Shown: positions 5,419 through 34,147 of the stretch, in pieces
How positions within the stretch are numbered: the stretch's first letter is position 1
How the letters are laid out: each line of letters opens with the position of its first letter
From: a virus
Virus record (IMG/VR): IMGVR_UViG_3300017779_000058
Location: 1-34,147 of that record
Direction: 5' to 3' (one strand)
DNA length: 34,147 nt
Position numbers and translations under genes: made by a program
Notes under the pieces: model-generated
What the model was told of the DNA's origin: nothing
The model's database searches: none
What the model saw: only the letters and a program-made list of their open reading frames with translations

Positions 5419-5499
5419 TCAGGTAAGTAATGATAACACAACAAACAGCGCCACAAAGAGTGACGCTGCTGCGATTGTGTCTGACAGTAGCGGTGGCAT
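5419..5499 (-). CDS. Candidate 26-residue single-pass membrane microprotein
   Basis: An open frame starts at an ATG that overlaps the stop of the preceding gene as TAATG. It encodes MPPLLSDTIAAASLFVALF followed by VVLSLLT. Residues about 9-25 form one continuous hydrophobic segment, unusual for random non-coding DNA. There is no clear ribosome-binding site, so expression would rely on coupling. Small phage membrane peptides often inhibit host functions, but no role can be assigned. Confidence 0.45.
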   Translation of the reverse strand: MPPLLSDTIAAASLFVALFVVLSLLT

Positions 5500-5882
5500 T
5501 AAGCCACTCGCTTTCTGAGTTCAGAGAAGTTACGTTTCTTGGGGGTGGCAACCGGCTTGTTCGGTAGCCAAGTCTCACCGCCGCTAAAGTGTTTATAAAC
5601 TTCAATGTCTGCATCGTGGCGGACTTGAAGCTCCTCAAGCTCTGGGCAAAGGCGATCAATCCAACGTTGAGTGCGTTCTTGATCGTGTAGATTCTTAACC
5701 TCAACAGCTATGTCATATTCAGCTAGCGCGTCAGCAATCTGCTTACGTTTGAATTGCAAGCTGTTGTGTGACGTATAGCAAGCATCTCTAGATAGACCTA
5801 CGAGGAACTTGCTATTATCGTGGTTATGATAGTTTATAACTTCGAGTTTCAGTTTTGCGAGTTTAGATAATACCTTAGTCAT
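5499..5882 (-). CDS. Hypothetical 127-residue first early gene
   Basis: This is the first gene of the leftward block, so it is probably among the earliest expressed. An AAGGAG site stands 8 bases before the ATG. The product is soluble, with helical N-terminal and central parts (LQFKRKQIADALAEYDIAVE; DQERTQRWIDRLCPELEELQ) and a basic tail (ATPKKRNFSELRKRVA). No motif identifies a function. Its leader contains the nested structured element at 5907-6047. Confidence 0.7.
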   Translation of the reverse strand: MTKVLSKLAKLKLEVINYHNHDNSKFLVGLSRDACYTSHNSLQFKRKQIADALAEYDIAVEVKNLHDQERTQRWIDRLCPELEELQVRHDADIEVYKHFSGGETWLPNKPVATPKKRNFSELRKRVA

Positions 5883-5906
5883 TGCTAGTTCTCCTTGTTA
5901 TGTGGT

Positions 5907-6047
5907 GCGAGGATCATCCCCGCACGACGACTTGAAGCACGGAGCAGAAACGCCCAAAGGCGCTTGCAGTTCGCAATATCCGAGGTACGAGCGGTATTGC
6001 GAACTGTTTCTGCCCGATGCTCAACAAAGACGGGCGGGGATGACCGC
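5907..6047. ncRNA. Nested 141-base structured element in the divergent intergenic region
   Basis: Four co-linear helices can form. P1 is TCATCCCCGC (5914-5923) with GCGGGGATGA (6034-6043), extended by GG/CC and GC/GC pairs past small bulges. P2 is GCAGAAAC (5944-5951) with GTTTCTGC (6006-6013). A side hairpin is CGCC-CAAA-GGCG (5951-5962). P3 is CAGTTCGCAATA (5967-5978) with TATTGCGAACTG (5995-6006), extended by CCG/CGG. The rod could be a small RNA, a leader of the leftward transcript whose ATG is 25 bases beyond it, a replication or packaging site, or a bidirectional transcription block. The strand of any transcript is not determined. Confidence 0.5.
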
Positions 6048-6131
6048 AGCCTCCACTAACAAGGTGATCGACGCTTTGACTAATTATCTGAACAAGCAAA
6101 CTGTAACGAGCGGTGTAGTATGTGGTAGTGC

Positions 6132-6195
6132 GTCAATAGCTTTGGCAAGGTGTGACGTAGGATAATTAGCAATGTTACGTTACGTCACTATTGAC
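6132..6195. promoter_or_regulatory. Nested dyads around the 17-base repeat
   Basis: GTCAATAG (6132-6139) is the inverse of CTATTGAC (6188-6195), and inside it GTGACGTA (6152-6159) is the inverse of TACGTCAC (6181-6188). Copy 2 of the 17-mer TGTTACGTTACGTCACT lies at 6173-6189. A TTGACA at 6191-6196 could be a -35 element, but the position 17 bases on has only a poor -10. This looks like a regulatory or origin-binding cluster. Confidence 0.45.
6173..6189. repeat. 17-base repeat TGTTACGTTACGTCACT, copy 2
   Basis: This is identical to 5030-5046 and lies within the nested dyads at 6132-6195, in the gap between the leftward and rightward blocks. The likely use is as a protein-binding site shared by two control regions; no known consensus was recognised. 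Confidence 0.6.
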
Positions 6196-6221
6196 AGTAC
6201 ATTACAGGATGGTGTTAGCGT

Positions 6222-6244
6222 GGGGGGAGAGAGGGAGAGGGGGG
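6222..6244. other. G-rich purine tract with near-mirror symmetry
   Basis: The plus strand is purine-only here: G6, AGAGA, GGG, AGA, G6. It offers four or more runs of three G with short loops, so a G-quadruplex is possible. It is also nearly a mirror repeat, the class that can form triplex DNA. It lies between the nested dyads and the start of the late block. Its function, if any, is unknown. Confidence 0.4.
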
Positions 6245-6363: not shown

Positions 6364-6738
6364 ATGGGTGAAGTTACCCGAAAGTTGACAGATAAACAGA
6401 CAGCCCTCGTTGACACCATTGTAGCAAATGGCTGCTCCATCAAGGATGCTGCTCCTTTAGCAGGTTATGCAGTTGGCGAATCTGGAAGGGTAACTGCAAC
6501 CAAGACTATGAAGTTGCCTCATGTGCAGCAGTACATGATGGAAAGGATGAATGAGGAGTTTGGATTATCTGCTACTATCGCTGCAAGACAACTCCGTACC
6601 CTAGCTTCTGGGGCTAAATCTGAGTATGTCCAGTTAGAGGCATCGAAGGATTTGCTAGACCGTGCAGGGTATAAACCGATTGATCGCAGCCAAGTGCAGG
6701 TTGCAGGGGACATACGAGTCTCAATCGATCTAGGATAA
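6364..6738 (+). CDS. Terminase small subunit
   Basis: This 124-residue protein recognises phage DNA for packaging and loads the large subunit. The N-terminal LTDKQTALVDTIVANGCSIKDAAPLAGYA is the typical helix-turn-helix of the Terminase_2-like small subunits. It is followed by HVQQYMMERMNEEFGLSA and an oligomerisation-type helix, AARQLRTLASGAKSEYVQLEASKDLL. The C-terminus (VAGDIRVSIDL) is the usual short tail. It is the first gene of the rightward block. The large subunit follows 2.3 kb later, after ten small genes. Confidence 0.85.
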   Translation: MGEVTRKLTDKQTALVDTIVANGCSIKDAAPLAGYAVGESGRVTATKTMKLPHVQQYMMERMNEEFGLSATIAARQLRTLASGAKSEYVQLEASKDLLDRAGYKPIDRSQVQVAGDIRVSIDLG

Positions 6739-33827: not shown

Positions 33828-34147
33828 CAGAGGCAGGAGAACGCCCCCCTTCACAAGATTACCACCCATTGTTAGATGAGCCGCCACTGTCTGCGGCATA
33901 CTTATTGCCATCCATTTCTCCTAAGAAGACATCAGCATTACAGCCAACGTGTGACAGGGCTTTAGTCAAACCATCAGTGACAGCCATCTTGGGGGCATCT
34001 TCTGCCATCCGTCCCTTGACTGAATCAAAGAACTTACGACAGCCAGTGAACGGCCCGAATACATTTGATGGATTGCCATGCCAGACAGAGACATGAGCAA
34101 GCACTGCGCTATCTCCGTTACTGACGTTGACGATTTGTGTTTCACTG
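33828..34147. repeat. Right copy of the 320-base terminal overlap
   Basis: Matches bases 1-320 with eight third-position mismatches. It contains the 3' end of the annealing-protein gene, which runs off the right edge and continues at 321-478 on the left end if the map is circular. Confidence 0.9.
33859..34147 (-). CDS. Annealing protein, second partial copy (cut by the window end)
   Basis: This is the same gene as the one at the left end, truncated at its 5' side by the end of the window. The protein encoded is identical to the left copy over its length in spite of eight base changes. It is best read as the same locus from a related haplotype, not as a second gene. Confidence 0.85.
   Translation of the reverse strand, partial: SETQIVNVSNGDSAVLAHVSVWHGNPSNVFGPFTGCRKFFDSVKGRMAEDAPKMAVTDGLTKALSHVGCNADVFLGEMDGNKYAADSGGSSNNGW

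Follow-up and report, generated by a model that had tools for sequence, protein, structure and literature searches.

A covarying palindrome over the start of a leftward gene in marine phages, with mismatches that favour folding of the antisense strand

What is a strongly folding stretch of 141 bases doing between the two divergent gene blocks of a marine phage? The window, by which we mean the whole stretch of DNA analysed, is the 34,147-nt tailed-phage record IMGVR_UViG_3300017779_000058, from a marine virus of bacteria. The fold occupies its only divergent region, adjoining a conserved purine tract and the small terminase gene (6364–6738, PHROG matches) with which the rightward block begins. 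On the other side, the leftward block starts with L127 (5499–5882, − strand, 127 aa), followed by DUF932, RecE-like and YqaJ-like genes. By large terminase, the isolate nearest to the window is Pelagibacter phage EXVC031P Hodr (65% identity); a search for DNA similarity to phage isolates returned nothing relevant, and relatives were gathered from IMG/VR by TerL, pattern and L127 scans. The purine tract, GGGGGGAGAGAGGGAGAGGGGGG (6222–6244), is nearly mirror-symmetric, directly precedes the small terminase gene and is kept in nearly all relatives; G-rich tracts resembling it occur in Vibrio and Cronobacter relatives, and it is a possible packaging, R-loop or G-quadruplex site. The record also carries a near-copy of ∼290 bases at its ends (32–478, 33859–34145), the same protein segment with differences, and the probable causes are circular permutation or terminal redundancy of the genome, or else an imperfect join.

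An earlier note on this DNA had described 5907–6047 as four helices stacked into a rod with one side hairpin, including perfect 10- and 12-base inverted repeats. All four helices are present where it placed them, the repeats being an outer 10-bp stem (5914–5923/6034–6043) and a perfect 12-bp stem (5967–5978/5995–6006). Folded as RNA, the segment reaches −71.1 kcal/mol on the + strand and −73.6 on the − strand (z −7.6 and −7.5), and none of 200 shuffled sequences was as stable. The limits drawn in the note did not survive: pairing extends outward, and the 141 bases are only the tip of a longer palindrome. Thus 5868–6092 folds with z −8.7 (−) and −9.9 (+), and 5761–6197 folds as a single rod of −180.7 kcal/mol on the + strand (z −10.2) and −159.1 on the − strand (z −8.0). 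What had been overlooked is that the start of L127 is itself a pairing partner of the fold, which caps a more extensive inverted copy of this gene. The note judged no gene credible here; the extended fold overlaps the start of the credible gene at 5499–5882 (−). Scans for tRNA and tmRNA gave no match, no Rfam 15 family matched the window or ten relatives at the gathering threshold, and none matched the window, Hodr and L172 elements at E ≤ 1 with lax filters. Among the roles the note had listed, a likeness to 6S RNA is therefore unsupported, the 6S family being one of those without a match even at E ≤ 1; a block to transcription is unlikely, a terminator-like site not having been found; a small RNA and a leader of the leftward block stay live.

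The tip of the palindrome, hereafter the cap, has a plan that is common to the sequences lying upstream of L127. Its outermost helix, P0, pairs 5893–5905 on the gene side (− strand), which overlaps the L127 ribosome-binding site, with 6053–6064. It is followed by P1a (5914–5923 with 6034–6043, 10 bp plus flanking pairs), by the middle stem P1b (5932–5950 with 6007–6025), and by a three-way junction formed with P2 (5967–6006) and the 4-bp side hairpin P3 (5951–5954/5959–5962). CTTG (5963–5966) stands directly after P3 on the + strand, and the base of P2 is CAGTTCGCAA/TTGCGAACTG, conserved across families as TTCGCAA/TTGCGAA. A local hairpin on the − strand, P4 (5905–5925, arms 5905–5912/5918–5925), lies beside the ribosome-binding site and competes with P1a, since the two exclude each other.

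The cap recurs in 49 sequence clusters and in further lineages including Pelagibacter phage Hodr, in the gap that separates the small-terminase gene from the first gene of the leftward block. In the Hodr group a syntenic rod of different sequence (z −7.2) lies over the ribosome-binding site and start codon. Eight more lineages carry the cap motif at the same site, beside a leftward gene whose protein is only distantly related to L127 or shows no detectable relation to it and, on contigs long enough to include it, with the terminase small subunit on the other side. No rod was found in the equivalent region of BcepC6B-like Vibrio and Cronobacter relatives; the left end of Burkholderia phage BcepC6B itself (L425, 1–100) has a strong inverted repeat near a repressor gene (z about −8). 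The P2 apex is modular: it measures 13–156 nt and has been exchanged between near-identical flanks, as in L164 and L168 or in L187 and the window. Apparent recombination has exchanged the inner domain of the RNA, or the tip of P2, between unchanged flanks (L187/window, L164/L168, L125/L112), and the window cap shares 92–94% identity with caps from phages in which L127 identity is only ∼37%. In L113 and L114, a hydrophobic ORF of 62 aa runs through the leader across P1 and the tip of P2, with a stop that overlaps the L127 start; other families showed no such ORF.

Covariation was assessed by an R-scape-like test written for this analysis, in which a tree was built from the alignment and substitutions were reshuffled to give 40 null alignments. 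The leading covarying pairs fell in P1b, P2, P3 (E 0.05) and P4, one of the six being a register neighbour of a true pair; P2 counts lean towards the model, because the P2 anchor used to cut out the sequences was chosen partly by complementarity. P4, found in 48 of the 49 clusters, is paired in 91% of cells (67 sequences), and double changes occupy 56 cells where shuffling gave 18.3 ± 3.4. A triple covariation of columns 51:149:163 ties column 149 to its partner in P1a as well as to that in P4. The covariation that the earlier note had suggested looking for in homologous intergenic regions is thus present, as is a folding energy below that of shuffled sequence, so that the fold survives the refutation proposed there. 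Exceeding a phylogeny-aware null, the covariation identifies the element as a conserved structured RNA.

Outside the cap, the arms of the palindrome are made of L127 and a copy of it. The left arm (5761–5905, + strand) is the antisense of codons 1 to ∼41, the start codon and the ribosome-binding site. In the right arm, 6077–6103 (+) stands opposite codons 1–12 (6077–6083/5875–5881, 6083–6093/5861–5871 and 6096–6103/5850–5858), and the outer part, 6104–6197 (+), pairs more weakly with L127 to about codon 41 and overlaps operator-like and −35-like sequences. These include conserved palindromic GTGACGTAACGTCAC-like sequences beside TTGACA (6150–6196), which partly overlap the outer right arm, resemble the L127 codons for YTSHN, and are the probable operator and promoter of the rightward block. 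In the window, then, pairing covers the ribosome-binding site, the start codon and the first 12 codons, and is weaker out to 5761–6197. Among 48 families, codons 2–12 pair with their own leader at −22.8 kcal/mol, as compared with −14.7 for the leaders of other families and −17.2 for synonymous recodings; the own leader does better than other leaders in 45 families (p 6e-13) and better than with recoded codons in 43. The excess of pairing along the gene is strong for codons 1–11, weak to about codon 44, and then nil.

Arm length varies widely among lineages, and the window carries only a short version. The mirror arm spans essentially the entire L127 gene in about a dozen clusters (L087, L179, L208, L210, L212, L214, L215, L217, L226, L233, L238 and L253), in most of which the copy reaches ∼30–70 nt past the gene. 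These full-arm rods of 1.0–1.3 kb fold at −562 to −682 kcal/mol when the + strand, antisense to L127, is taken, as compared with −458 to −588 for the sense strand (−), and 0.74–0.85 of the arm is paired on the + strand. A lack of codon-position bias and of a long shared frame rules out coding in the mirror arm. L127 itself is conserved in more than 150 viral contigs, with third-position-biased divergence, and its AlphaFold2 model is a helical hairpin (pLDDT 87); Pfam, PHROG and fold searches gave no match. A scan of bacterial and archaeal genomes returned a single match, L429, on the contig of a marine Euryarchaeota MAG that is probably a misbinned phage, and on this basis the family looks largely viral rather than proviral.

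Gene and copy change together. Between relatives, the gene varies mostly at third codon positions while the copy varies evenly. At gene-variable sites, both relatives were paired with their own partner in 219 cases and neither in 21; with partners swapped, the figures were 66 and 127. Sites that had changed on both arms and were fully compensated numbered 135. Pairs of relatives overlap in these counts, which are therefore not independent. Identity between gene and copy inside one genome can exceed that between copies in different genomes.

Every palindrome offers two strands for folding, and the mismatches and loops help to tell them apart. In going from gene to copy, the full arms show 200 A>G and 127 C>T changes, far more than the 14 G>A and 25 T>C, so that mismatches read on the antisense (+) strand are G·U in 327 cases and A·C in 39; other mismatches read G·G 69 versus C·C 5 and U·U 127 versus A·A 37. 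Deamination of C is the less likely cause of this bias, gene A to copy G being at least as common as C to T. At non-Watson–Crick positions lying between pairs that the folds of both strands have in common, G·U falls on the + strand in 40 contexts and on the − strand in 13, and the new lineages gave 11 sites and 3. A strand-neutral alignment gave 136 versus 29 (cross-family control 344 versus 224). Unpaired bases are A in 43% of cases on the + strand as against 25% on the − strand, a difference that holds throughout the cap outside P3 and the base of P2; P4 and P1a are strand-neutral or lean to the − strand. Mismatches that disturb one strand little disturb the other severely, and the bias in the arms may therefore equally reflect selection that loosens the sense mRNA, but such loosening does not explain the A-rich loops or the cap counts. 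Taken as a folded RNA, the + strand accounts better than the − strand for the mismatches and for the base composition of the loops, and it is well supported, if short of proven, that the + strand of the window is an RNA kept folded. A consensus scan and synonymous conservation gave no signal of a promoter for a + transcript within L127, where host promoter rules may differ; beyond the arms and at their ends only weak signal was seen and no promoter was recognised, and a search for a terminator of such a transcript found none.

The reading we prefer, to which we give close to an even chance, is that the element caps a + strand fold-back rod RNA, antisense to L127 and coupled to its expression. 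Its left arm would be the antisense of L127, strongly over the first 12 codons and weakly to ∼41 in the window, and over the whole gene in other lineages. Its right arm would be a non-coding inverted copy whose changes have tracked those of the gene, with G·U wobbles used to keep the antisense strand paired, and the conserved three-way-junction domain with its exchangeable tip would close the rod, perhaps as a binding or recognition part. The + strand is presumed to be transcribed. Complementarity of such a rod to the L127 leader is given by its position, and the rod, which would also cover the L127 ribosome-binding site and start codon, may set L127 expression in cis, whether as an antisense RNA or as a structural one. 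We think it unlikely that the kilobase DNA-encoded self-paired rod of these marine podoviruses is an RNA agent or long dsRNA with a function of its own beyond regulation of its neighbour, for example by serving as a decoy for a dsRNA-binding or nuclease system of the host, or by inhibiting it.

The main rival to the + strand rod is a leader RNA of the leftward block. The mRNA would start at the right end of the rod and fold back so as to cover the L127 start codon, the ribosome-binding site before it and the first codons after it. L127 would then stay silent until the leader had been processed, until a factor had bound it at the junction, or until a ribosome had caught it while transcription was under way. 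In favour of such a leader, a transcript crossing the element is needed for L127, and a promoter-like sequence (6115–6136, −; TTGACG 6136–6131, TACTAC 6121–6116) that does not match the sigma-70 consensus is the putative start of the leftward block; in many short-arm relatives the right arm starts 7–12 nt after a motif of this type. Here and at equivalent sites a tandem ATACTAYAMC-like motif with a period of ∼10–12 nt stands behind TTGACR, in a spacing at odds with a sigma-70 promoter. In the leftward mRNA, a conserved helix holds the ribosome-binding site together with the start codon, both inside the rod in the lineages inspected, as in a sequestering leader; accessibility of the ribosome-binding site is 0.092, as compared with 0.267 when the upstream sequence is shuffled, and is lowered in 60 of 64. 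P0 changes together with that site (GGAG/CTCC to GGAA/TTCC in L157; AUGGC/GCCAU in L150). P4 offers an alternative fold, but it fails as an on-switch: forcing it costs 0–10 kcal/mol and, in the families computed, leaves the ribosome-binding site paired. If the leftward mRNA folds as drawn, L127 is therefore silent unless something else opens the fold. Against a leader, the other strand folds better in 53 of 64, by a mean of 6 kcal/mol and by 220 kcal/mol in L215, and on the − strand A·C mismatches outnumber G·U about 5 to 1 while the unpaired bases are U-rich. We regard the leader as a tentative and somewhat unlikely explanation.

Two further accounts dispense with a dedicated RNA. The copy may be the remnant of an inverted gene duplication, kept alike by recombination or template switching, with selection merely loosening the L127 mRNA hairpin. 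The high identity between gene and copy within a genome would follow, the commonest mismatches are those that weaken the leftward mRNA most, and the phage encodes a RecE-like exonuclease; however, this leaves unexplained the conserved junction, the covarying P2, P3 and P4, the A-rich loops of the + strand and retention across many lineages, and the cap lies outside the gene copy, so that we hold it to be quite unlikely. Very unlikely, in our estimate, is a DNA element, either a cruciform or a single-stranded + strand hairpin, serving replication, packaging or recombination. It would suit a site in the only divergent region, beside the small terminase gene and the purine tract, and DNA hairpins also tolerate G·T and G·A pairs. 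Nevertheless, the position of the element follows the L127 start rather than the terminase gene, a modular three-way junction with A-rich loops is typical of RNA, and nothing points to the replication or packaging site that the earlier note had also entertained.

How does this compare with known systems? In P1-like phages, c4 RNA is a phage antisense RNA that acts on a leader and its ribosome-binding site, and we know of no gene-length inverted copy for it. The c4 family (Rfam RF01695) is listed in PMC2864571. The + strand rod would share with it the antisense action on a leader, but has no Rfam match. Type I toxin mRNAs such as tisB have a highly structured leader in which the ribosome-binding site is sequestered, and they are partnered by an antisense RNA (PMC7708055). 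The structured leader with its sequestered site is found here also, but L127 is a 127-aa helical protein rather than a small membrane peptide, and the partner arm is a mirror copy of the gene. Sequestered starts, phage antisense control and structured toxin mRNAs are thus already known (PMC2864571, PMC7708055), and the leader reading, if true, would be a variation on a known kind of control.

The layout of the relatives, of which the window carries a shorter version, is another matter, and any claim to novelty rests on it. A whole-length, co-evolving, non-coding mirror of a gene, with the antisense strand kept folded, could not be matched to a described arrangement, and appears to be a new layout: no published description of a gene with a co-evolving non-coding mirror was found in searches of an open-access library, and we know of no phage in which a whole-length non-coding inverted partner keeps the antisense strand of a gene folded. 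In diversity-generating retroelements, too, a gene segment lies beside a non-coding near-copy, but their hallmark is direct template and variable repeats that differ at adenines, together with a reverse transcriptase. Here the copy is inverted, and A>G and C>T are both common alongside transversions, a pattern that does not fit such an element. The rod offers a clear and testable case in which selection acts on the two strands of a single gene, in relatives of a cultured Pelagibacter phage. Its cap is an unclassified RNA domain whose tips are swapped between phages like modules. In overall form the rod recalls hepatitis delta RNA and the Obelisks, which are circular, replicating RNAs, rod-like and largely self-paired, with an ORF on one side. 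A largely self-paired rod of about 1–1.7 kb with an ORF on one side occurs here only in relatives with full arms; unlike those RNAs, it is encoded in phage DNA between phage genes and known from DNA contigs alone, and its better-paired strand is the antisense of the ORF, which lies on the complementary strand.
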